Made by a program: the position numbers and the translations under genes. DNA of 21,420 nucleotides from a virus, in the IMG/VR virus record IMGVR_UViG_3300010885_041680, positions 1 through 21,420 of that record. One strand, written 5' to 3'. Shown here piece after piece: positions 2,874 through 15,430 of this stretch (its first letter is position 1; each line of letters starts with the position of its first letter). The notes under the pieces were generated by a model. It saw only the letters and a list, made by a program, of their open reading frames with translations. It was not told where the DNA came from and searched no databases.

Positions 2874-3236
2874 ATGACATTCGACTTACAAAAATATCTA
2901 ATAGAAAATAATCTCACTCTAACAGGCAGACGAAGACTATTCGAAGATGTAGATCCAGATGAAACTCCTGAACCTACTAAAGACGATATGAAGAGCACCG
3001 ATAAAGAGATGAAGAATTTAGATAAGAATAAAAAAGAACTAGGTCAATTACAAGCAAAAGCAAAAGACATAATTTTTAAGTATACAATTGATACTCCACA
3101 AGGTAGAAAAATAAAAGGCAGTATCACTGATTACAAAAAAGCTATAGGAGATATTCCTAAAAAAATAAAAGAGTTAGAGAAAAAAATTAAAGCCGTAGAA
3201 AACCCAACGACAGATGATACAGATGAACAAGATTAA
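2874..3236 (+). CDS. Small charged coiled-coil protein, unknown function
   Basis: 120 residues, very rich in Lys, Asp and Glu, with long helical heptad-like stretches at about 40-70 and 88-110 and an acidic disordered tail. The N-terminus reads MTFDLQKYLIENN, whose L-I-E at residues 9-11 fits the same (L/I)-x-E pattern seen at the start of several head-region proteins here, so it may be cargo or scaffold-associated (inference). The start ATG follows an AAATTAAAAATT leader without Shine-Dalgarno. Its last codons overlap the next gene if that gene uses its most upstream ATG. No family recognised. Confidence 0.65.
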   Translation: MTFDLQKYLIENNLTLTGRRRLFEDVDPDETPEPTKDDMKSTDKEMKNLDKNKKELGQLQAKAKDIIFKYTIDTPQGRKIKGSITDYKKAIGDIPKKIKELEKKIKAVENPTTDDTDEQD

Positions 3237-3567
3237 TAACAAAATGATTATTAACGTAGTTATAGGAATAATACTACTATGTGTATTTGTTTTTTTAGCA
3301 ATTCCAAAACCAAGTATGCCAGCAGATTTAAGAGCGAGCATAGATTCTTTAACAACTCAAAATAGAAAATTAATAGAGCACCAAAAACGAATGGATAGCG
3401 CTATCTCTGCATATCAATCTCAAGTTAATCAAATTGATAATCATATAAGTCATATTAAAAGTCAAACTACTATTGTTAACAAATATTACAATGATTTAGG
3501 ACAACAAGTAGATCAATATAAGCCAACTCAAGTTGATTCATTTTTTAAATCAAGATATAACTATTAA
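3214..3567 (+). CDS. N-terminally membrane-anchored coiled-coil protein, possible i-spanin-like
   Basis: 117 residues from the first ATG. Residues about 12-30 form one hydrophobic membrane segment, followed by PKPSMP and then a long Gln/Ser/Asn-rich coiled coil (about 37-95), ending in VDSFFKSRYNY. This N-anchor plus periplasmic coiled-coil layout is that of inner-membrane spanins (Rz-type), and the next gene encodes a second exported coiled-coil protein. The start is uncertain: ATGs at 3214 and 3223 overlap the upstream gene, while ATG 3244 avoids overlap and still keeps the membrane segment. The stop shares TAATG with the next start, suggesting translational coupling. Lysis function is inferred from topology and pairing; a tail or membrane accessory role is possible. 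Confidence 0.6.
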   Translation: MIQMNKINNKMIINVVIGIILLCVFVFLAIPKPSMPADLRASIDSLTTQNRKLIEHQKRMDSAISAYQSQVNQIDNHISHIKSQTTIVNKYYNDLGQQVDQYKPTQVDSFFKSRYNY

Positions 3568-4013
3568 TGAAAAATATATTAATTACACTATTAACGTTAT
3601 TATCGTTTTCTAGTAAATCACAGACACTTCCTACATATGATAGCTTAGGTAATGTTACATATTATACTGAAGATACAATCAAATTACCATTTTCAATAGC
3701 TAAAAAAATAACTAGGGAATTAGTTGGATGCGATAGCGCTAAAGCAATACTTGACTTAACTAAAGATCAACTTGCATTAACTGAACAAAAAGTAGTATTA
3801 AAAGATAATATCATTTCCAATTACATTCAAAAAGAGGTATTATATGAACAACGCATCTCAAACGAAAAAGAAAAATTCAATATACAAGGCGTATATGTAA
3901 AACGTTTAGAGTGGGACAATAAAAAATTGCGTATTAAGTTAACTCTTTGGAAAATTGGCTTCTCAGCAGGAGTTGCAACAGCAGTTCTTGGATACTTATA
4001 TCTCACCAAATAG
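3567..4013 (+). CDS. Secreted coiled-coil protein with C-terminal membrane segment, possible spanin partner
   Basis: 148 residues. The N-terminus has a short positive end and hydrophobic core followed by SSKSQ, resembling Bacteroidota signal peptides that end in a Gln just after cleavage. The middle (about 40-125) is a helical, charged coiled coil beginning LPFSIAKKITRELV. Residues about 129-147 (IGFSAGVATAVLGYLYL) form a C-terminal transmembrane helix. An exported coiled coil with a second anchor, directly after an N-anchored one, fits a spanin-like lysis pair. I see no lipobox cysteine just after the signal, so it is not a classical outer-membrane spanin. Proteins of this layout are common in Bacteroidota phages and prophages. 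The ORF ends in TAG, one of two TAG stops here. Confidence 0.6.
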   Translation: MKNILITLLTLLSFSSKSQTLPTYDSLGNVTYYTEDTIKLPFSIAKKITRELVGCDSAKAILDLTKDQLALTEQKVVLKDNIISNYIQKEVLYEQRISNEKEKFNIQGVYVKRLEWDNKKLRIKLTLWKIGFSAGVATAVLGYLYLTK

Positions 4014-4067: not shown

Positions 4068-5666
4068 GTGTCAGAGCAAATAAGTATAAAAGAAAAAATA
4101 AAAGAGGAATTTATAAAATGTGCATCAGATCCAGTGTACTTCATGAAGAAGTATTATACGATCCAGCACCCTCAAAGAGGTCGCCAGCTTTTCGATCTAT
4201 ATCCTTTCCAAGAAAAAGTACTTCGCTTATTTCAAAAATATCCAGATTCAGTAATAAATAAATCTCGTCAGCTAGGTATCTCTACTCTCGTATCAGCCTA
4301 TTCTTTATGGATGATGATATTCAACAAAGACAAGAATATTCTTGTTATTGCAACCAAGCAGGATACTGCAAAAAACATGGTAACTAAAGTACGCTTTGCT
4401 TACGATAATTTGCCAATTTGGCTAAAGATCGGCTCTGCTGCTACTGAAAATAATAGATTGAGTTTGCGCTTGGCAAATGGTTCTCAAATCAAAGCCGTGT
4501 CTGCAGCAGGTGACTCTGGTCGTTCTGAAGCTGTATCTCTTCTAGTAATAGATGAAGCCGCATTTATTGATAATATCGATACAATATATACCGCGGCTAA
4601 AATGACATTGGCAACTGGTGGAGGATGCATAGCACTATCTACTCCTAATGGTGTTGGTAATTGGTTTCATAAGACGTATACAGAAGCTCAAAAACAAGAC
4701 AATAACTTTATTCCAATATCATTGCCATGGAGTGTTCATCCAGAACGTCAACAGGACTGGAGAGACAAACAAGATGTAGATCTAGGAAAAAGAAATGCTG
4801 CTCAAGAGTGTGATTGTTCATTTCTTAGCTCAGGAAATACAGTTATTGAACCTGATATTCTTACATGGTACGAACAGAATATGATATGTGATCCTCAAGA
4901 AAAACGAGGACCTGAAAAAGCATATTGGATTTGGGAATATCCTGATCCTATGAAATATTATGTCATTATTGGTGACGTTGCTCGTGGAGATGGGTCTGAT
5001 TACTCAGCATTTCACGTTATAGACATAGAAACTATGACACAAGTTGCTGAATATAAATCTCAAATAGGCACAAGAGAATATGCCAATGTACTCATAGCTG
5101 CAGCAACAGAATACAATCAAGCGTTGCTAGTAGTTGAAAACGCAAATATTGGCTGGGACGTAGTACAATCTATAGTAGAAAGTGGATATTCAAATATTTA
5201 TTATAGTCTAAGATCAGAAGGTAATTCAGATTTTACCACATATTTGAATAAATTTGAAAGAACAGACGGATTAGTACCGGGTTTTACAACATCTTTAAAA
5301 TCAAGACCTCTGGCAATAGAGAGAATGAGAGATGTTATAGAAAAAAAGCTTGCAACTATTAAATCGATTAGATTGCTAGAAGAGCTTAGAGTTTTTATTT
5401 GGAAAAATAATAAACAACAGGCTATGAACGGTTATAATGACGATCTTGTTATACCGTTTGCGATAGCAATGTATCTTAGAGAGACATCATTGAGATATAA
5501 AAAAACTGCTGAAAGTCTAACTTACAGCACATTAAACAATTATACAAAAACAACCGGCGATACGCCTCTTTATAATTCAAATAGTCATATGAATCAAAAT
5601 CCATGGACTATGCAAATAAGTAACTCACAAGGACAAGATACTCAAGATCTAACTTGGTTAATATAA
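4068..5666 (+). CDS. gp17: Terminase large subunit (gp17-like), ATPase-nuclease packaging motor
   Basis: 532 residues; pumps DNA into the prohead through the portal and cuts the concatemer. The ATPase domain has a Walker A-like KSRQLGIST (65-73), Walker B LLVIDEA (158-164) with D162 and E163, and the coupling motif STPNG (191-195). The RNase H-like nuclease domain has the expected acids: D303 in IIGDVARGDGSDY, E357 in LVVENAN and D458/D459 in GYNDDLV. The usual Walker A lysine before Thr/Ser is Ile; K65 before the loop may serve instead, as in deviant terminases. The start is GTG 4068: no in-frame ATG precedes the conserved region, and AAAAGG seven bases upstream is one of the few Shine-Dalgarno-like sequences here. 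The portal gene follows four bases after the stop. No small terminase gene is visible. Confidence 0.95.
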   Translation: MSEQISIKEKIKEEFIKCASDPVYFMKKYYTIQHPQRGRQLFDLYPFQEKVLRLFQKYPDSVINKSRQLGISTLVSAYSLWMMIFNKDKNILVIATKQDTAKNMVTKVRFAYDNLPIWLKIGSAATENNRLSLRLANGSQIKAVSAAGDSGRSEAVSLLVIDEAAFIDNIDTIYTAAKMTLATGGGCIALSTPNGVGNWFHKTYTEAQKQDNNFIPISLPWSVHPERQQDWRDKQDVDLGKRNAAQECDCSFLSSGNTVIEPDILTWYEQNMICDPQEKRGPEKAYWIWEYPDPMKYYVIIGDVARGDGSDYSAFHVIDIETMTQVAEYKSQIGTREYANVLIAAATEYNQALLVVENANIGWDVVQSIVESGYSNIYYSLRSEGNSDFTTYLNKFERTDGLVPGFTTSLKSRPLAIERMRDVIEKKLATIKSIRLLEELRVFIWKNNKQQAMNGYNDDLVIPFAIAMYLRETSLRYKKTAESLTYSTLNNYTKTTGDTPLYNSNSHMNQNPWTMQISNSQGQDTQDLTWLI

Positions 5667-5670
5667 CAAT

Positions 5671-7575
5671 ATGGCAGAACAACAACAAAGACAGAATAAT
5701 TTATTTTCTACACTTAGAAGATTATTTTCAACAGACGTAATAATAAGAAACGATGGCGAAGGATCTTTAAAAGTAATCGACGTTGATCGTATTCAAAATA
5801 ACGGTGTAATTCAGAATAATTCTTTAGTAGATAGGTTTCACAAGATTTATACGACTTCTACAGCTTATGGAGTCAATCTAAACCTAGCACAAAACTACCA
5901 ATCAGCCAGGGTTCAAATATATGCTGATTATGACGCTATGGATACAGATGCTATAGTTGCATCAGCCTTAGATATTTTAGCTGACGAATGTACGCTTAAA
6001 AACGAACAGGGAGAAGTTTTACAAATCAGATCATCAGATGAGAATATACAAAAAATACTATATAATTTATTCTATTCAGTGCTAAATATAGAATTTACTA
6101 TGTGGGGCTGGATAAGAAACATGTGTAAGTACGGAGATTTCTATTTAAAACTTGAAATAGCAGAAAAATATGGAGTATACAATGTTATTCCATTCTCTGC
6201 TTATAATGTAATTAGGCAGGAGGGATATAATCCAACAAATCCGAATGAAGTGAGATTTAAATACGACCCACTTGGAGCGCTTGGAACAACATCAGGATTT
6301 TCTTCGGCTTATAACAATGAAGATCCAGGAGTTTACTTTGATAATTATGAAATGGCTCATCTTAGATTAACTGGCGATGTAAATTATCTGCCTTATGGAA
6401 GATCTTATTTGGAACCAGGAAGAAAGCTATTTAAGCAATACACACTTATAGAAGACGCGATGTTAATTCATCGTATCACAAGAGCCCCAGAGCGTAGAAC
6501 TTTTTATGTAAATGTAGGAGCAATTCCTCCAAATGAAGTAGAAAACTATATGCAAAGAATGATTAGTAAGATGAAGAAGACTCCACTTATTGATCCACAA
6601 ACAGGAAATTATAATTTAAAATACAATCAACAAAATCTATTAGAAGATTTCTTTATCCCAGTTAGAGGCGGAGATACTACTACAAAAATAGATACAGCTA
6701 AAGGATTAGAGTATAATGCAATAGAAGACGTACAATATTTTAGAGAAAAGCTATTTGCGGCTCTTAAGATACCGAAAGCTTTCATGGGTTACGAAAAAGA
6801 TTTGACTGGTAAAGCCACATTAGCCGCCGAAGATATACGTTTCGCAAGAACGGTAGAAAGATTACAGAGAATTATCATATCCGAAATGACTAAAATAGCT
6901 TTAGTGCATTTGTATGCTCATGGATATACTAATGAATCAGCAGCTAATTTTACGCTATCTCTAACCAATCCATCAATCATTTACGAGCAAGAAAGAATTG
7001 CTCTTTTTAAAGAGAAAGTCGCTTTGGCAAAAGATGCGATGGATGGCAATCTACTTCCTAAAGACTTCATTTACGATAAGATATTCCAATTCTCTGAAGA
7101 TCAATACGCAGAAATGGAAGATTTAATAGTAGAAGACAAGAAAAAAGCATTTAGATTGAAACAAATTGAGGAAGAAGGAAACGATCCAGCAGAAACAAAT
7201 CAAGTATTTGGAACTCCACACCAATTAGCCAGCTTGTATGGTGGCAAAGGAGATAGCCCTTTAGATCTACCTACTGGATACGACGAAAAAGACGTACAAG
7301 ATGGTCCTGGAAGACCAAAAAAATATCAATCTAAAATAGGAACAGACGCATCGGCATTTGGTAGAGACGCTCTTGGCAAAAAAGATATGAAGAAAGGCAT
7401 GTCTCCAGAAGACTCTTTAAAAGTTCAATATAAAGGCGGACCGCTTGTTTACGAAACGTCTATGGCAGAGTATGTAAGAAACAAAGCTATGTTAGATGCA
7501 ATGGGTAGAAAAACAAATTTATTTAAGGGTCCATCTTTATTAAGTGAAGACAATATTAAATCAGATTTAACCTAA
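5671..7575 (+). CDS. gp20: Portal vertex protein (gp20-like)
   Basis: 634 residues. The dodecameric portal sits at one capsid vertex, starts prohead assembly and is the docking site for the terminase and then the neck. The T4-family signature is clear: a YGDFYLKLEI strand, an LPYGRSYLEPGRKLFKQY segment followed by LIEDAMLIHRITRAPERR and FYVNVG, and a late segment around KAFMGYEKDLTGKATLAAED that matches the region around the tunnel and clip. It is longer than T4 gp20 (about 520 residues); the excess is a C-terminal extension from about residue 500, rich in Gly, Pro and Lys, with the string GPGRPKKY. It starts just after the terminase stop, without Shine-Dalgarno. Sheath and tube genes (gp18, gp19), which separate terminase and portal in T4, are absent at this place. 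Confidence 0.93.
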   Translation: MAEQQQRQNNLFSTLRRLFSTDVIIRNDGEGSLKVIDVDRIQNNGVIQNNSLVDRFHKIYTTSTAYGVNLNLAQNYQSARVQIYADYDAMDTDAIVASALDILADECTLKNEQGEVLQIRSSDENIQKILYNLFYSVLNIEFTMWGWIRNMCKYGDFYLKLEIAEKYGVYNVIPFSAYNVIRQEGYNPTNPNEVRFKYDPLGALGTTSGFSSAYNNEDPGVYFDNYEMAHLRLTGDVNYLPYGRSYLEPGRKLFKQYTLIEDAMLIHRITRAPERRTFYVNVGAIPPNEVENYMQRMISKMKKTPLIDPQTGNYNLKYNQQNLLEDFFIPVRGGDTTTKIDTAKGLEYNAIEDVQYFREKLFAALKIPKAFMGYEKDLTGKATLAAEDIRFARTVERLQRIIISEMTKIALVHLYAHGYTNESAANFTLSLTNPSIIYEQERIALFKEKVALAKDAMDGNLLPKDFIYDKIFQFSEDQYAEMEDLIVEDKKKAFRLKQIEEEGNDPAETNQVFGTPHQLASLYGGKGDSPLDLPTGYDEKDVQDGPGRPKKYQSKIGTDASAFGRDALGKKDMKKGMSPEDSLKVQYKGGPLVYETSMAEYVRNKAMLDAMGRKTNLFKGPSLLSEDNIKSDLT

Positions 7576-7611: not shown

Positions 7612-8463
7612 ATGATTAAACATTCAAAATATCGTAATACTGGAATTCTATTTGAATTGCTAGTTCGACAAACTACTTCTGATCTCTTAAATAATACGGA
7701 TTCTAAATCTGTAAAAATATTAAAGAAATATTTCGCCAATACAGAATTGGGAAAGGAGTATAGTTTATATAGCGCTCTAGCCACTAGTAAAAAACTAAGC
7801 GAAGCAAAAGCCGAGATATTAGTATCTACTTTGATAGAGCAATATAAAAAACTTGACTACGAAAAAATAAACAAGTTAAAGTATAATTTGATAAAAGAAA
7901 TTAAATCTAATTATGAATTAGAAGAGTTCTTTAAAGCTAAGATTTCTAATTATAAGCAATATGCATCTCTTTATACAATATTCGAATCTCAAAATAGCAA
8001 ATCTATAGATACAAAACAATTGATCTTGAATAAGATAACCTTATTAGAACAATTGACAGACGAATCTATTTCAGATAAAAAAGCTCCACAATCAATCATG
8101 GAAGATTTCATGAAAGAAGACAAAGAAGTTAGATTGCTGGCTTATAAAATATTAGTAGATAAATTTAACGATAAGTATGAAAGTTTAAGTGAGATTCAAA
8201 AGTCTGTTCTTAAACAATATATCAATAGCATAGCTGATACAAAATCTCTAACTACATATTTAAATAAGAGAATTTACGAAGTTAAAACAGAATTAAAGGC
8301 TCTATCAAAGTCAGTACCAGATAAAGTTTTAAAGATAAAATTACAAGAAGTTTTAAAACTTGTACAACCAATAGATGAAAATAAATCTATAAAAGACGAT
8401 ACAATTGTAGGTATACTTCAGTGTTACGACTTAATAGAAGAAATTAAAAGAGCAAATGTCTAA
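7612..8463 (+). CDS. Conserved-looking helical head-region protein, unknown function
   Basis: 283 residues, almost entirely helical and Lys/Glu/Leu-rich. The opening KYRNTGILFELLVRQ is distinctive and I believe it recurs in uncharacterised proteins beside the portal gene of other T4-like environmental phages; that is memory, not a search. GKEYSLYSAL (about 47-56) follows. No membrane segment, signal peptide or catalytic motif is evident. It lies between portal and protease, where T4 carries the prohead core genes 67 and 68, so a role in prohead core or assembly is plausible. Its last eight bases overlap the next gene. The start uses CTAAATAAATG without Shine-Dalgarno. Confidence 0.75.
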   Translation: MIKHSKYRNTGILFELLVRQTTSDLLNNTDSKSVKILKKYFANTELGKEYSLYSALATSKKLSEAKAEILVSTLIEQYKKLDYEKINKLKYNLIKEIKSNYELEEFFKAKISNYKQYASLYTIFESQNSKSIDTKQLILNKITLLEQLTDESISDKKAPQSIMEDFMKEDKEVRLLAYKILVDKFNDKYESLSEIQKSVLKQYINSIADTKSLTTYLNKRIYEVKTELKALSKSVPDKVLKIKLQEVLKLVQPIDENKSIKDDTIVGILQCYDLIEEIKRANV

Positions 8464-10165
8464 ACAAAAAAAATACGAATTTAATCAACAATTCGCCACA
8501 CTCAGATTAAGAGAAGAAATAACCAAACCTCTTTTTGAAGGTCGTGTAATGTTTACAATAGATGATGAAGATGTAGATCAATTATTCAGTAATCAATTTG
8601 AAGCTGATGTGGATTATATTCATGATGGACCAGATGTATATTACGTAACAGATCAGAATGATCTTGAAAGATTTGTAGATTACGTAGAGAGCAGCGGATT
8701 AGATGCAGATGCTATCAAAATTCAACAATATTTCAAAGAAGAAGGCAGCGTTACCGGAGGTGAAGGTTATTTTCCAGCTATGGACGTTTCATCTAAAAAA
8801 CAGAATCCGTTTAAAGAAGATGCTTTATCTGGTTATACTCAAGATAAAAACTTCCGTCCTGGACATACAGCAGACAAAGGTGGATTTCAATACAAAGATC
8901 TTTGGGGATTGAATGAATCAGAAGATTTAGAAGCCACAAAACAAAAAGTTATTTCTTGGTCTAGACAAAATCGCAATGCTAAACAAGATTCATTAGCAAT
9001 CCAATGGTTTAAAGAGTTTGAAGACGCGGTAATGAAGGCTACAACAAAACAAGGGATTAGAGACGCAGTACTCGATATGTACTATGCACAAGATGATCTT
9101 TTTGATAAACTTGGTTTACTTGATCTAGATTATGATGATTCTGAAAAATCTACTGATCGTCTTATGAAAAAATCTACTTCAAACGAAGAAGAGCTTCAAA
9201 GACTACAAGGTCTATTAGATAGAGCAAATCAAGAGAAATCATATTCTGTCATGAGTTCTTACGAAGACAAGATAAAAAAATTAAAATTTCTAGTTGCGTT
9301 AGAGAAAAAAATCAATGATAAATTACCTTTATTCGCTTTTAGCGATTATTGGGAAGATTATGCAAAAAGCAAACTAGCATGGAACGGAAATCCTAATAAA
9401 TTCTCAGATATAGCTATTCATGTTCAAGGTTTAATGGAACCGCCTTATAAAGGCAAAATGGAAACTTTAAAAGAGATGAATCAGATTGTTGACGAAGTAT
9501 TTTCTAGAGAAGATTACAAAAAAGTTTTAAGTATAATAGAAAAAATAAAATATACTAATACTAAACTATATAATGCTATATTGGATATGTTAACAGACAA
9601 TTATCCACATAGTTATGAAGAAGTTGAAGCTCAAATGGGATTAAACGAATCTATGATTCCAGATAATATTGTTACTTTCGCTAAAAGAAAAGGCGTTATG
9701 ACTCTAGTAAAAAAAGTAGCTAATTGGGTACAAAAAGCAGGTAAAAGAATAGTCGGAGGAACAGCTATAGGAAAAAATTATAATACATTAGTATTAGATC
9801 TAACTTATCAAGGAGGAGAAATACGCATTAATTTAGAAGACGAAACTATATCTGTAAATGGAGAAGATTATATTTACGATTATGACGAATTTATTAATGC
9901 ATTAGGTACAATAAATGAAAATTATTCTCGTTTTAAAAACGAAACTAAAACAAGAACAAGTCCAGAACAATTTCATCAAGCAGTTAAATCTGTTAAGCGC
10001 AAAGTAGAAGAAATTCATAAGCTTTACGAGTATATGGAAAGGTTGCAAAAAGAATTAAGCGAAGGAAGCGATGGACTTAAATATAAGAAGTATACTGAAA
10101 ACGCAATGCAGAAAATAAAAGAAGCTGTGAAAACTTTACACATAAAAACAAAGAAGTTAAAGTAG
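8456..10165 (+). CDS. Multidomain head-region protein, candidate protease-processed polyprotein
   Basis: 569 residues, no recognised family. Visible parts are: an N-terminal alpha/beta domain (about 28-95), a Gly/Lys/Pro-rich linker (about 96-150), a long helical region (about 156-392), a domain with a basic helix then beta strands (about 400-485), and a C-terminal basic coiled coil (about 490-569) opening FKNETKTRTSPEQFHQAVKS. The sequences LNE-S at 152-155, LNE-S at 396-399 and INE-N at 486-489 fall at these boundaries, and LRE at 18-20 near the start; all fit the T4 gp21 cleavage rule. I infer, without proof, that the neighbouring protease cuts it. It overlaps the upstream gene by eight bases and ends in TAG, one base before the next ATG. 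A non-cleaved scaffold or core protein is the alternative. Confidence 0.75.
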   Translation: MSKQKKYEFNQQFATLRLREEITKPLFEGRVMFTIDDEDVDQLFSNQFEADVDYIHDGPDVYYVTDQNDLERFVDYVESSGLDADAIKIQQYFKEEGSVTGGEGYFPAMDVSSKKQNPFKEDALSGYTQDKNFRPGHTADKGGFQYKDLWGLNESEDLEATKQKVISWSRQNRNAKQDSLAIQWFKEFEDAVMKATTKQGIRDAVLDMYYAQDDLFDKLGLLDLDYDDSEKSTDRLMKKSTSNEEELQRLQGLLDRANQEKSYSVMSSYEDKIKKLKFLVALEKKINDKLPLFAFSDYWEDYAKSKLAWNGNPNKFSDIAIHVQGLMEPPYKGKMETLKEMNQIVDEVFSREDYKKVLSIIEKIKYTNTKLYNAILDMLTDNYPHSYEEVEAQMGLNESMIPDNIVTFAKRKGVMTLVKKVANWVQKAGKRIVGGTAIGKNYNTLVLDLTYQGGEIRINLEDETISVNGEDYIYDYDEFINALGTINENYSRFKNETKTRTSPEQFHQAVKSVKRKVEEIHKLYEYMERLQKELSEGSDGLKYKKYTENAMQKIKEAVKTLHIKTKKLK

Positions 10166-10297
10166 ATGGCAAAAGCAATAGTAAGGGGCGGATCTAGTAC
10201 GAAATTGAGTTTCGGCAAAAGAAAAAAAGGCTTAGTAAAAAAAAGTTATAATAAGCACAATCCTAGACCAAAAAAATATATCGGACAAGGTAGATAA
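10166..10297 (+). CDS. 43-residue highly basic protein
   Basis: ATG 10166 directly follows the TAG stop of the previous gene, and the frame ends at TAA 10295-10297. The product is 43 residues with roughly a third Lys or Arg and no acidic residue. It opens MAKAIVRGGSSTKLSFGKRK, and its end reads NKHNPRPKKYIGQGR. The tight spacing, coding-like composition and ordered Gly/Lys pattern support a real gene. I recall similar small basic GKRKKG...KKYxGQGR proteins among phages of this type but cannot check. A DNA-binding or DNA-condensing head protein, or a partner of the acidic scaffold, would suit the charge (inference). It would be easy to miss by length alone. Confidence 0.65.
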   Translation: MAKAIVRGGSSTKLSFGKRKKGLVKKSYNKHNPRPKKYIGQGR

Positions 10298-10301
10298 CAC
10301 A

Positions 10302-10309
10302 TATTTATA
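10302..10309 (+). promoter_or_regulatory. TATTTATA element just before the 526-residue gene
   Basis: TATTTATA ends only three bases before ATG 10313. If it were a -10 element with T4-late spacing, the transcript would start at or just inside the start codon, giving a nearly leaderless message, so promoter function is doubtful here. It is listed because it matches the four other intergenic elements. Confidence 0.25.
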
Positions 10310-10312
10310 AGT

Positions 10313-11893
10313 ATGAAAAACATAAGCAAACAATACGCAGATCTTTTAGAGGGCAAAATGAGTAGAGACAATTTCGTTAGAAACTGTCGTCAACAATTTC
10401 CTCAATTCGTATCTCCTGTAACATCAGTAGATGACGCGATTAAGATTCTTAAAAGTAAAAGAATCATAGCAGAAGCAATGAATAATATGAATCCTGATGC
10501 AGAAAAGCAGGGCTATAATGATAATTATGATGGGTATTCATTGAAAGATTGTCCATATACTGGTATCGATGCAGCTTTATGGAAAGATGGTTGGATGGAA
10601 GCCGAAACAGAAAAACAAATGGAGCATGATGAAGACACATACAACAGAGAGACTGGCGGATATGGAGATCTTTATAATGATGACAAAGATCAAGATGATT
10701 GGTCGAAAATGGATAAAGACGATGTTCATCCAGGAGGATTTCCAGGTATGACTGAGAGATTAAATGAAGCTGAAGAAAAAACACAAGGTCGTTGGAAAGA
10801 AGCCACAGGTCAAGGACAATACGAAAGATTCAAAGACATGGACAATGTTAATTTTTCAACTTTCTTGAGAGCGGTTGCTTTTGAAGTATCGAAAGATCCT
10901 GTTATCAACGATGATAACTTGCCCGATATAATGGAAAAAGTTGCCAAGGCTATGAAGAAAGATCCTATGGCTTACAGAGATCTTGTTATATCAAATACTG
11001 CCGACATCAAGAAGCAAGATGAAACTCGTAAAATGAGAGAAGTTAAACCTGGCAACATGGTTGACAAAGATAACGGCATGCAAGAAATAAAAGGTCAGGA
11101 AAAATATAAAGCAGATAGCGCACCAAAAACCGAATATAGAAAAGGTAAACCAGAAGGAGTAAAAGAAATGGGAATAACTCCAAAGAAAGCACCCGGAATC
11201 AAAGATGTAATGGACATGCCAGGTAAAGAAACGGTGATAGATCAATTGAAAGAAGCCTTAAAAAAAAGTCTAAAGGAAGATACTCACTATAACTATAGAC
11301 CAGGATCTGAGGTAGAAACTCCTAGCGGATTTGGAATAGTTAAAGATATAATCGGAGGAACTATCACGGTAGAATTAACTAATGGAGAATTGGTCGACTA
11401 CCAAGTAAATATGTTGGACGCGATAGTCGCCAAAAAACAAAGAGACGATGCATTCAAATCTTTACCAGATCTTGGCAGTGCTGGACAAAATTGGTTAAGT
11501 AACCAGATAAATGAAGATGATCAAGACACAAATATTCAAGCACTAGAAGCCGCGCTTCGTTCTCACGATTGGTATTATAGAATGAGTGATGATCCTAGAG
11601 CGTACGATAAAGGAGACGATGAAAATACTAATATCAGCAAACTAATGAAACTAGTTCCAAGAGAAATAGCTAAAGAGCTATATAATAAATATTCTCCTTG
11701 GAAAATGCAAGAATCTGCTAAAGAAGACAAATATAGTAAATTAAAAGAGTACTTAAGAAAAGTGCTAAAGAAAGAAGCTATAAAATTTAAAGCTGGAGGA
11801 GAAACAATATTCAAGAATAATGCAGAAGCAACGCCGTACGAATCAGATTTAAAAAAAGCGGGTGTTAAATATGTAAAAACAAGTGTATCATAA
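10313..11893 (+). CDS. Multidomain head-region protein with RMF-like segment and SH3-like segment
   Basis: 526 residues. Residues about 66-98 read QGY...DGYSLKDCPY...W-KDGWMEAE, closely matching the layout of ribosome modulation factor (RMF) proteins: GY, a CPY turn, then W and GW near the end (C80-P81-Y82, W90, G93-W94). An acidic linker follows, then a helical part (about 175-230), a Lys/Pro-rich stretch (about 235-305), and a beta segment (about 328-378, PGSEVETPSGFGIV then TVELTNGELVDYQ) like small SH3/KOW-type barrels. The helical C-terminal part ends with GVKYVKTSVS. LLE at 11-13, LNE-A at 150-153, LKE-D at 320-323 and INE-D at 399-402 fit prohead-protease sites lying between these parts. 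The stop shares TAATG with the protease gene, so the two are probably coupled. Its role is unknown; head-internal cargo is my inference. Confidence 0.72.
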   Translation: MKNISKQYADLLEGKMSRDNFVRNCRQQFPQFVSPVTSVDDAIKILKSKRIIAEAMNNMNPDAEKQGYNDNYDGYSLKDCPYTGIDAALWKDGWMEAETEKQMEHDEDTYNRETGGYGDLYNDDKDQDDWSKMDKDDVHPGGFPGMTERLNEAEEKTQGRWKEATGQGQYERFKDMDNVNFSTFLRAVAFEVSKDPVINDDNLPDIMEKVAKAMKKDPMAYRDLVISNTADIKKQDETRKMREVKPGNMVDKDNGMQEIKGQEKYKADSAPKTEYRKGKPEGVKEMGITPKKAPGIKDVMDMPGKETVIDQLKEALKKSLKEDTHYNYRPGSEVETPSGFGIVKDIIGGTITVELTNGELVDYQVNMLDAIVAKKQRDDAFKSLPDLGSAGQNWLSNQINEDDQDTNIQALEAALRSHDWYYRMSDDPRAYDKGDDENTNISKLMKLVPREIAKELYNKYSPWKMQESAKEDKYSKLKEYLRKVLKKEAIKFKAGGETIFKNNAEATPYESDLKKAGVKYVKTSVS

Positions 11894-12522
11894 TGAATAA
11901 GGAACTCTTAATAGAATACAGCATTTTTACTCCTAAAAAGAGCACGCTATCTGAAGGAACAAAAAATGGAAACGGAAATATGATCGTTTCTGGGTTAGTA
12001 CAAGCTTGCGATAAGCCTAACGCTAACAAAAGAATATATCCATATGACACATTAAGAAGTCAAGTAGATTTATATATAAAAGGACCAATAGCAGAAAACA
12101 GAGCACTCGGAGAATTAGATCATCCAGAAACATCAGTTGTTAATTTAAAAAATGTATCTCACAACATACTTAAATTATTTTGGGATGGAAAAAATCTTTT
12201 CGGAGATATTGAAATTCTACCAACTCCATCAGGAAATATACTAAGACAACTATTCGCAAATAATATAACAGTCGGCATCTCATCAAGAGCTATGGGAACA
12301 GTGTCTCCTATCGGAGAGGGTCTTGTTCAAGTAGAAGACGATTTAGAATTGATTTGTTGGGACTTTGTATCAACACCATCTACATTCGGAGCCTATGTTA
12401 GACCTGTATCAGGAATCAACGAATCATACGCTCCATCTGCAAATCAAAACAGATATGGTAAAGCAAACAGAATGGTTTCAGACATCATTTGTAGCATGTC
12501 GGGTGTATGTTGTATTAATTAA
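11893..12522 (+). CDS. gp21: Prohead core protease (gp21-like, herpesvirus-assemblin-type serine protease)
   Basis: 209 residues, close to T4 gp21 (about 212). It cleaves scaffold, capsid and internal proteins after Glu in (L/I)-x-E sites during prohead maturation. Family features seen: an N-terminal strand region with NKRIYPYDTLRSQVD, the catalytic-histidine motif ALGELDHPE (H77), the nucleophile motif VGISSRAMGTV (S130 or S131), and the conserved acidic strand LICWDFVSTPS (D157). The C-terminal tail contains INE-S at 175-178, a likely self-cleavage point removing about 32 residues, which fits the known self-processing of T4 gp21. It lies directly before scaffold and capsid genes, as in T4. 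Translation is probably coupled to the preceding gene through TAATG. Confidence 0.92.
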   Translation: MNKELLIEYSIFTPKKSTLSEGTKNGNGNMIVSGLVQACDKPNANKRIYPYDTLRSQVDLYIKGPIAENRALGELDHPETSVVNLKNVSHNILKLFWDGKNLFGDIEILPTPSGNILRQLFANNITVGISSRAMGTVSPIGEGLVQVEDDLELICWDFVSTPSTFGAYVRPVSGINESYAPSANQNRYGKANRMVSDIICSMSGVCCIN

Positions 12523-12660: not shown

Positions 12661-13719
12661 ATGGAAGACATGTACAAGCAGGCAATTTTAGATGCCAAAG
12701 CAGTTCGTGCTAGCGCTATGGCAAATGCCAAAGCAACACTTCAAGAAGCTTTCGAACCAAAAATTCAAGAGATGATTCGTTTAAAACTTTCCGAAGAATT
12801 AGAAGAGGATTTAGAAGAGGACGAAAACGATCCATATTCTGAAAATCCTACTCGTAGAGACTTGGGAACTCAAGACGAAGAATCTTATGAAACTTCAGCA
12901 GAAGACACAGCTTATCAAGACATGATAAGTAAAGAAAAAACCGGTGGATCACTTGCAGAAGACGAAGAAATGGACGACGCTTCATTAGAAGAAATTCTAG
13001 CAGAATTAGATGAATTAGCTGAAGCTGATGAAGAAGACGCTGAAGAAGACGATGAAACATCCGACGATGAAACATCTGACGACGCAGCAGACGATTCAGA
13101 AGCAACAGAAGAAACTCCAACTGATGACACTAAAGTGATCGATATCACTCTTGGTGATCTTAAACAAGTACTTCAATCAATGCAAGGTAACGACATGGGA
13201 GACATGGACGATACGGGCAGCGAAGAAGGCGAAGAAGGATCTGAAGAAGATGCAGACGCTACTTTAGAAGAAATCAATTTGGACGAAATCTTAAACAGCT
13301 TAGAAGAAGCTAAGATGAAGGACAAGAAAAAAGACATGACAAAAGAAGAAAAAGACAAAGAAGAAGAAACCAAGAAAAGTTTGAAAGAAGCTAAGAGCAC
13401 AATCAACATCTTACGCAGAGAACTTAACGAAGTTAATCTTTTGAACGCTAAACTTCTTTACATGAACAAAATCTTCAAGTCTAAGAATCTTAGTGAATCA
13501 CAAAAAGTAAATGTAGTTTCTGCTTTAGATCGTGCAACAAACACGAAAGAGGCTAAAAATATTTACGAAACTTTAAAAGAGAATATTCAACCGAAGAAAT
13601 CTCAAATTCAAGAATCAAGAGGCTTCGCTTCAAAACCAGCGGGCGTAGCACCTAAGAAACCTATTTTAGAATCTGATGCTTTTGTAAGCAGATGGCAAAA
13701 AATAGCTGGTATAAAATAA
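12661..13719 (+). CDS. gp22: Prohead scaffolding core protein (gp22-like)
   Basis: 352 residues. The scaffold forms the inner core on which capsid protein assembles and is destroyed by the gp21-type protease. Typical traits are present: an N-terminal amphipathic helix (MYKQAILDAKAVRASAM), a very acidic low-complexity middle (about 44-218, Glu/Asp-rich), a charged coiled coil (about 219-310), and a basic C-terminal end closing in FVSRWQKIAGIK, like the conserved (F/V)xxRxQKLAGI ending I recall for this family. IQE-S (316-319) and ILE-S (335-338) are good candidate cleavage sites. It sits between the protease and the capsid gene, as in T4. ATG 12661 follows a G-free A-rich leader (AACAAACAAAA) rather than a Shine-Dalgarno. 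Confidence 0.88.
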   Translation: MEDMYKQAILDAKAVRASAMANAKATLQEAFEPKIQEMIRLKLSEELEEDLEEDENDPYSENPTRRDLGTQDEESYETSAEDTAYQDMISKEKTGGSLAEDEEMDDASLEEILAELDELAEADEEDAEEDDETSDDETSDDAADDSEATEETPTDDTKVIDITLGDLKQVLQSMQGNDMGDMDDTGSEEGEEGSEEDADATLEEINLDEILNSLEEAKMKDKKKDMTKEEKDKEEETKKSLKEAKSTINILRRELNEVNLLNAKLLYMNKIFKSKNLSESQKVNVVSALDRATNTKEAKNIYETLKENIQPKKSQIQESRGFASKPAGVAPKKPILESDAFVSRWQKIAGIK

Positions 13720-13747: not shown

Positions 13748-15430
13748 ATGGCAAATTTAGTACAAAATTTACTAAACGAGTCTGCTCAAACAGCATTCTC
13801 CGACCAGTTTTCAGTTGCCTCTAGACTTACAAAAAAGTGGGCAAAATCTGGTCTGCTTGAAGGTCTTAATGACCACGATCGTTCGTCTATGGCGGTGATC
13901 TTAGAAAACCAAGCAAAACAATTAGTTATCGAAACCTCAAATACAGGCACTGGCGCAACTTTTACCGCCGCTAATGGTGAACAATGGGCTGGAGTAGCTT
14001 TACCTTTGGTACGTAAGATCTTTGGTCAAATTGCAGCGAAAGAATTCGTTTCAGTTCAACCAATGAACTTGCCTGCTGGATTGGTATTCTTTTTAGATTT
14101 CCAATACGGTACTTCTGGTAACCCTAATTTCCCTCAAAATACATCTTTGTATGGTGCTCAAACTACTAACTTTGGTAATGCTGCTTCTGGTGGTCTTTAT
14201 GGAGCTGGTCAGTTCGGATATTCATTGAATTTATTTAGTGCATCAATTAGTTCATCTAATTCAGCATATGTAAGTTCATCAGCAACTTGGGCAGATGTTT
14301 CTTTTGATGGAGCTCTTTCAGCATCTATAGCATCTAATACGATAACAAAAATTGCTTTACCTCAATCCTTTTTCTCAGCATCTGATGCTAATGCAGTTAG
14401 ATCATTTACAATTGCACCGGCTGCAGCAAATTCTGTTCAATTTACAGATGGTGAAGTTTTAAGTAACTTTACTGCAATCTCTGCTTCTCAAGTGGTATTT
14501 TTATTGAATAAAGCTGCTGTATCAACTCCTGGCGCTAATGCTAACTTTGTTGCTTACTGGAATAAATCAACTGATTTCAATAGTCGTGGAGATTTTGAAG
14601 ACCGCACTTCTGGAGCTTCTGTGCCCAATGCGTATTCTCCATCGTCAATCAGTATTCCTGAAATCAACGTAGGTATGAGATCTGAAACCATTTCTGCTAA
14701 AACTCGTAAGTTAAAAGCACAATGGACTCCAGAATTTGCGCAAGATCTTAATGCTTATCATGCTCTTGATGCTGAAGCTGAATTGACTGGTATCCTCTCT
14801 GAACACGTTTCATTAGAAATCGATTTAGAAGTATTAGATATGTTGATTCAATCTGCACCCACTACTGAGTATTGGTCAGCAAAGGTTGGCGCAACTTTAA
14901 GTACTAGCGCAGCAGGTATCACATCATATAATGCGGCAACAACAACCACTGCTGTTGGACAATATTATACTCAGATGACTTGGTTTCAAACTTTGGGTAT
15001 CAAATTACAAAAAGTGTCTAACTTGATTCACCAACGTACTTTACGCGGTGGTGCTAACTTCATGGTTGTTTCTCCAACTGTAGCTACTATCTTGGAATCA
15101 ATTCCTGGATTCGCAGCAGATACTGACGGTGCAGCTGACACAATGAAGTATGCCTTCGGTGTACAAAAAATTGGTAGCTTAAATAGCCGTTACAAAGTTT
15201 ACAAGAATCCATACATGACTGAAAACGTTATCTTGATGGGCTTCCGTGGAACTCAATTCTTAGAGTGTGGAGCAGTTTACGCACCATACGTTCCATTGAT
15301 CATGACACCTCTTGTGTACGATCCAAATACCTTCACTCCTAGAAAAGGTATTATGACTCGTTACGCATTGAAAATGGTTCGTCCTGAATTCTATGGTAGA
15401 GTGATTGTAGCTGATACAAATATCATCTAA
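13748..15430 (+). CDS. gp23: Major capsid protein precursor (gp23-like)
   Basis: 560 residues; HK97-fold shell protein of the T4 type. Recognisable segments: WAKSGLLEGLNDHDRSSMAV near the start, the VSVQPMNLPAGLVFFLDFQYG strand (T4 has VQPMNSPTGQVF), the RSETISAKTRKLKAQWTPE segment with the conserved KTRKLKAxWT(P)E core, and a C-terminal RKGIMTRYALKMVRPEFYG. The N-terminal propeptide should be removed by gp21-like protease: V-I-E at 60-62 before TSNTGTG is positioned like the T4 cut after E65, and I-L-E (51-53) is an alternative; L-N-E-S (9-12) may be an earlier cut. Between about residues 125 and 310 lies a Ser/Ala/Asn-rich insertion. A strong terminator follows. Confidence 0.95.
   Translation: MANLVQNLLNESAQTAFSDQFSVASRLTKKWAKSGLLEGLNDHDRSSMAVILENQAKQLVIETSNTGTGATFTAANGEQWAGVALPLVRKIFGQIAAKEFVSVQPMNLPAGLVFFLDFQYGTSGNPNFPQNTSLYGAQTTNFGNAASGGLYGAGQFGYSLNLFSASISSSNSAYVSSSATWADVSFDGALSASIASNTITKIALPQSFFSASDANAVRSFTIAPAAANSVQFTDGEVLSNFTAISASQVVFLLNKAAVSTPGANANFVAYWNKSTDFNSRGDFEDRTSGASVPNAYSPSSISIPEINVGMRSETISAKTRKLKAQWTPEFAQDLNAYHALDAEAELTGILSEHVSLEIDLEVLDMLIQSAPTTEYWSAKVGATLSTSAAGITSYNAATTTTAVGQYYTQMTWFQTLGIKLQKVSNLIHQRTLRGGANFMVVSPTVATILESIPGFAADTDGAADTMKYAFGVQKIGSLNSRYKVYKNPYMTENVILMGFRGTQFLECGAVYAPYVPLIMTPLVYDPNTFTPRKGIMTRYALKMVRPEFYGRVIVADTNII

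Follow-up and report, generated by a model that had tools for sequence, protein, structure and literature searches.

A putative prohead-core polyprotein of exchangeable cassettes bounded by prohead-protease motifs in a T4-like phage

In the head-gene cluster of a T4-like phage, a 569-residue open reading frame (8456-10165, plus strand) with 44 non-redundant homologues probably encodes a polyprotein of the prohead core, which the neighbouring S77 protease would cut to release folded cassettes. All positions are those of the window, that is, the whole stretch of viral DNA analysed here (21,420 nucleotides). We demonstrate the modular build of this protein, the motif at its joints, the linker position of the motif, the protease next door and the autonomous predicted fold of one cassette. 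An earlier note on this DNA had proposed that the protein is a polyprotein cut by the prohead protease; this reading is now supported by the joints in homologues and by predicted linkers, and cleavage itself remains an inference from sequence, very likely to occur in vivo in our estimate but without peptide evidence. Retention and injection of the cassettes are likewise inferred, in the absence of virion data, and here the chances appear roughly even.

Under the proposed mechanism, the 569-residue protein would enter the prohead core, probably by means of the leader at its N-terminus and the conserved coil at its C-terminus, a route that is itself inferred. At maturation, the S77 protease would cut at sites of the [LIV]xE type, after glutamates 28, 154, 398 and 488, and possibly 121, which would yield the leader and four pieces, namely an N-domain, a helical part, an alpha/beta cassette and a coil. 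The leader would be about 3 kDa in size and the four pieces, beginning at G29, S155, S399 and N489, about 14, 28, 10 and 10 kDa. The folded cassettes would then represent exchangeable cargo, the counterpart of the separately encoded internal proteins of T4, and would likely be injected along with the DNA.

The surrounding genes are those of a head cluster, with the terminase at 4068, a gp20-type portal at 5671 and, between the portal and the 569-residue frame, a 283-residue protein at 7612. The gp21-like protease that the earlier note had placed at 11893 is borne out as a prohead core serine protease (11893-12522, plus strand; Peptidase_S77, PF03420, E 1.2e-21). It is followed on the same strand by an acidic scaffold-like protein (12661-13719) that, by position and composition, occupies the place of gp22 and is an expected substrate, with no family match in Pfam or PHROGs, and by a gp23-type major capsid protein (13748-15430; PF07068). 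By analogy with the 65-residue propeptide of the T4 capsid protein (PMC9026906), the latter is probably cut at LVIE62|TS. Among cultured phages, Flavobacterium phage immuto is the closest by capsid protein (55%), followed by Microcystis phage Mel-JY01 (49%) and Rhodothermus phage RM378 (35%); the phage analysed here is T4-like and related to immuto. Its host group is inferred; a cassette search in bacterial and archaeal genomes brought up no relatives, so that the host is not fixed.

Parts and predicted cut sites of the 569-residue protein

All parts of the protein described below are encoded on the plus strand. Residues 1-28 (8456-8539) form a predicted leader, a targeting-type propeptide recognized by alignment and disordered in the structural model, that ends in LFE|G; the corresponding end reads INE|G in most close relatives and LVE|N, IVE|N or LNE|V in others. 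Cleavage after E28, a predicted fourth site beyond the three proposed earlier, would remove this leader. Residues 29-154 (8540-8917) comprise an alpha/beta N-domain (29-90) and a disordered linker ending in LNE|S. This segment also includes FKE|D, a joint at which relatives carry an additional cassette of about 70 residues; its glutamate is residue 121 (codon 8816-8818). The predicted cut at E154 (codon 8915-8917) coincides with a mosaic breakpoint and with the end of the disordered segment, and all of the aligned relatives but L008 retain the site, either as LNE or as VNE. The helical cassette or cassettes that follow (residues 155-398, 8918-9649) are replaced by other modules in relatives, and end at the predicted cut LNE|S at E398 (codon 9647-9649), again a mosaic breakpoint. 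Residues 399-488 (9650-9919) are an autonomous alpha/beta cassette, composed of two helices, four strands and one more helix, that ends at the predicted cut INE|N at E488 (codon 9917-9919). The conserved C-terminal helical coil (residues 489-569, 9920-10162) is the one part retained in nearly all full-length homologues.

The three (L/I)NE motifs on which the earlier note rested (LNE|S at 154, LNE|S at 398 and INE|N at 488) are real, and there are exactly three [LI]NE in the protein, compared to a mean of 0.37 in shuffled sequences (P(3 or more) = 0.006). By itself, this count is weak to modest evidence; it is the homologues that make the case strong. The broader pattern [LIVMF]xE occurs 16 times, and most of the occurrences inside ordered parts are probably not cut sites. 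Residue 328 (LME|PP) was considered as a cut site and left out because a proline follows the glutamate. The caution expressed earlier about so short a motif was justified, given that (L/I)NE is found twice in PhoH and once in the putative gp15. Genome-wide counts of [LIV]NE alone do not separate head proteins from other proteins, and motif counts across the genome are barely above the expectation outside the polyprotein.

The suggestion that the sites fall at borders between different parts, and the accompanying proposal to examine by structure prediction whether they lie in exposed linkers, both came out in favour of the polyprotein. Confidence in the AF2 model is low over residues 1-28, 92-154, 371-399 and 485-511, such that E28, E154 and E398 end such stretches and E488 lies inside one; ordered parts begin directly after 28, 154 and 399, and the sites accordingly fall in predicted disordered linkers. 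The model of the whole protein is modest (mean pLDDT 63, 17 sequences) and a fold search with it returned nothing significant. The isolated cassette 399-488 was modelled with a mean pLDDT of 90.8 (44 sequences), showing the helices and strands listed above. Only weak matches were obtained with this fold; the best of these, to the C-terminal DNA-binding domain of T4 MotA (Z 5.9, 3.4 A over 72 residues), is too weak to support a claim.

Searches of PHROGs and Pfam with the 569-residue protein gave no match (E 0.01 / 0.1), and the Pfam search revealed no embedded peptidase or catalogued effector domain. Similarly, tblastn against cultured phages yielded no match for the whole protein or for two of its cassettes, and the only match of one module among cultured phages was to gp079 of Flavobacterium phage immuto. 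This gp079 has candidate sites such as NE|SVNE|GRV and SLNE|DDY, the protease of immuto being gp070, and in Microcystis phage Mel-JY01 the C-terminal coil is preceded by VNE|VSYK.

Joints in the homologues

The 44 non-redundant homologues, gathered from IMG/VR on the basis of their sequence and of their location beside the protease, are mosaics of about 170 to 680 residues. Segments of the polyprotein are gained, lost or moved as whole units, or are found in other genes, and the joints lie on the gp21-type motif, which is kept at the same joints while the flanking sequence changes on either side; the conservation of the motif that the earlier note had wanted checked in homologues is thereby borne out. 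For example, L010 (303 residues) is devoid of most middle cassettes and of the beta cassette. In L003-L005, L007 and L008, the 399-488 cassette is missing, and a single (V/M)NE|NY or LKE|NY takes the place of LNE, cassette and INE|NY, whereas in L011 the same slot holds a different cassette (LNE|IDNNYKIGD...KNINE|NY). Two relatives encode the polyprotein as a pair of separate genes (L020:1751-3182 and L025:3020-4913), and the second gene has a leader-like start of its own (MKNQVKNLQRIAGIINE|A).

For a quantitative assessment, a sharp joint was defined as the point where an ungapped match of at least 70% identity stops while 25 or more residues remain on both sides; a test based on gapped BLAST had given a noisy result, with 525 fuzzy breakpoints and a ratio of 1.3, and the sharp ungapped matches were used instead. 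Across the 44 homologues, 115 of 196 sharp breakpoints (59%) fall at [LIVMF]xE compared to 21% expected; when a small residue is required directly after the motif, the proportion is 45% compared to 11% expected. Breakpoints at [LIVMF]xK and [LIVMF]xD are below the expectation, control motifs with Q, N or R in place of E show no enrichment, and glutamate without a hydrophobic residue two positions before it is only slightly enriched (1.23). The reversed control motif is mildly enriched in the polyprotein family, at 1.74 as opposed to 2.73. Taken together, all other open reading frames of the same contigs show no enrichment (2784 joints, ratio 0.99); for individual genes, the ratio is 0.19 for the portal, 0.47 for the major capsid protein, 1.09 for the scaffold and 1.90 for the protease, the last value being consistent with the protease's own conserved C-terminal site. 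Because the contexts share phylogeny, binomial p-values are too small.

Searched alone, cassette 399-488 is found at 74 loci, in 59 distinct contexts, 35 of which have unrelated upstream sequence. It directly follows [LIVM]xE in all 59, including all 35 with unrelated upstream sequence (2.0 expected). The residue after the glutamate (P1') is alanine in 32 of these 35, and some of the E|A conservation could be owed to the cassette itself, as residues at its own start that are carried along with it. The codons ahead of the cassette vary synonymously (TTA/CTT/CTA/CTG/TTG for leucine, AAT/AAC for asparagine, GAA/GAG for glutamate), and P3 varies among L, I, V and M. Some copies of the cassette are internal, some are C-terminal, and in 14 cases the gene opens with a short leader directly before the cassette (such as MKHLHTFKSFLNE|A and MMTRIKQMYKDFFGYRLNE|A). 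In one relative, an 837-residue protein encoded upstream of the terminase combines the cassette with a module of the window frame 276-776 (p166) and a third module. The C-terminal coil, in turn, stands behind an [LIVM]xE motif in 84 of 86 contexts. The S77 protease is present in 12 of the 18 cassette-bearing contigs and was not seen in the other six; most of the homologue records are metagenomic fragments.

Alternative explanations and known systems

The main rival is a core (scaffold-helper) protein akin to gp67 and gp68 that is cut into disposable fragments, clearing space for DNA, with no later role for its domains. T4 genes 67 and 68 sit between the portal and protease genes, which is the map position of the frame studied here, and the C-terminal coil is retained in nearly all full-length homologues, as would be the case for a core protein. 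Moreover, T4 gp22, gp67 and gp68 are each cut into several fragments by gp21, which cleaves after the glutamate of L/I-X-E (PMC9026906), and these fragments mostly leave the head (PMC9026906, PMC5694885). However, a protein destined for disposal needs neither folding nor free exchange, and the cassettes are well folded, come and go freely and occur behind short leaders in separate genes; in addition, the neighbouring protein bears an RMF domain. There is also no PHROG or Pfam match to the T4 core-protein families (E 0.01 / 0.1), although such proteins diverge fast. We consider disposal of the whole protein unlikely, if by no means negligible: the coil may well have that role, and exchangeable, foldable cassettes fit cargo better.

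The joints could also be flexible linkers of an uncut multidomain structural protein that read LNE by chance, considering that domain shuffling generally occurs at linkers and that glutamate and asparagine are linker-prone. Shuffling of this kind does not account for the lack of enrichment when K, D or Q/N/R replaces E, for the ratio of only 1.23 for glutamate without the hydrophobic residue, or for the recurrence, in unrelated contexts, of the exact hydrophobic-x-E|small spacing that is also that of the protease's own C-terminal site, and we regard it as improbable. A further possibility is that a common short DNA sequence drives the cassette exchange, with the amino acid motif as a by-product; in other phages, the sequences at boundaries can serve for recombination. 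There is no direct support for such DNA-level linkers here, where codons alone were compared; the synonymous codon variation and the variation of P3 imply that the constraint acts on the protein, and very little room is left for this possibility.

The cassette polyprotein that we favour shares features with several known systems. With T4 gp22, gp67 and gp68, it has in common the position in the prohead cluster and several Glu-specific L/I-X-E cuts per protein (PMC9026906, PMC5694885), but the T4 fragments are mostly expelled, whereas the window segments are predicted folded domains swapped as units, without sequence match. The T4 internal proteins IPI-III and Alt consist of a short leader ending in xxE followed by a small folded domain, with diverse cargo behind a conserved leader (PMC3012670) that carries the capsid targeting sequence (PMC3012670, PMC7411985); the same build is seen in those genes of relatives in which cassette 399-488 follows a short leader and, for the predicted leader, in residues 1-28 of the window protein. 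These proteins are, however, encoded by separate genes and undergo one N-terminal cut (Alt also a C-terminal one, PMC5694885), whereas the window protein would carry several cargo domains per chain. The inner-body and ejection proteins of phiKZ and SPN3US are processed by a Glu-specific prohead protease (A/S-X-E) with multiple sites per substrate and C-terminal self-processing of the protease (PMC5694885, PMC10052503), but there the multiple sites lie in propeptides and each protein gives one mature product. Finally, polyvalent proteins of phages and conjugative elements, likened by the authors of that study to viral polyproteins, combine several domains in one injected protein that are freed by proteolysis (PMC5512222), although these rely on a peptidase domain embedded in the protein and draw on other kinds of domains.

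Core proteins cut at several sites, internal proteins with a leader and injected polyvalent proteins of several domains (PMC5512222) are already known, and the known role of multi-site cutting of core proteins in phages is to clear the head. What is new compared to T4 is the presence of folded, interchangeable cassettes delimited by cut sites, of which we found no description in the literature searched, which mostly did not include subscription papers. A phage could in this manner change its injected cargo by cassette exchange, without new promoters or leaders, a mode of swapping that we liken to the polyproteins of eukaryotic viruses. The findings also translate into a simple sequence rule, whereby segments between [LIV]xE|small sites in head-cluster proteins are candidate injected proteins, applicable to thousands of unannotated phage genomes.

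Neighbouring genes

The 526-residue neighbour (10313-11893, plus strand) has the same mosaic build, with joints at IAE54|A, LNE152|A and INE401|D, and in its family 34% of the sharp joints fall at [LIVMF]xE compared to 18% expected, making it a candidate second mosaic polyprotein. Between IAE54|A and LNE152|A, at about residues 62-99 (10496-10609, plus strand), lies a domain resembling RMF, the ribosome modulation factor, that scores 26.4 bits in the window and 34.9 bits in the L007 version, the Pfam cut-off being 27.9. If freed and injected, this domain could act on host ribosomes, which is a lead rather than a result. Extending this line of thought, we tentatively suggest that each genome in a large group of uncultured T4-like phages may encode several cassette polyproteins, which would make up a delivery system with interchangeable parts. 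In it, folded effector domains (ribosome-hibernation-type RMF, KOW/SH3-like and possibly a DNA-binding cassette), linked to one another by prohead-protease sites, would be freed in the head, injected with the DNA and act on the host at once. Between the 569- and 526-residue frames, at 10166-10312, several relatives have an extra gene of about 130 residues (MDNFNFKKYLTE|NN..., e.g. L001:4533-4931) that is absent from the window.

The C-terminus of the S77 protease is conserved as (L/I)(N/Q/K)E|(S/G), and the window version, GINE177|SY, is likely a self-processing site; related proteases of giant phages cut themselves near the C-terminus (PMC5694885). In G013, G014 and G015 (the contigs of L151, L152 and L154), the S77 domain is found in frames of 577-643 residues compared to the usual 209, which suggests a protease fusion.

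Upstream of the terminase, three frames (276-776, 787-2868 and 2874-3236) have leader-like starts ending in xxE (MIKLKKILTE|VS, MNNLDILKKLILQE|EE and MTFDLQKYLIE|NN) that resemble the capsid targeting sequences of T4. Two adjoining small membrane proteins beside the head cluster, one with an N-terminal hydrophobic segment and a coil (3214-3567) and the other with a signal-like N-terminus and a coil (3567-4013), resemble a spanin-type lysis pair. In Flavobacterium phage immuto, about 60 residues of the protein in the scaffold position (L016:10674-11915) are duplicated in tandem almost exactly (EEGFEQWLDSVSAQMDKFGKNNPTIQAIEKAV...).
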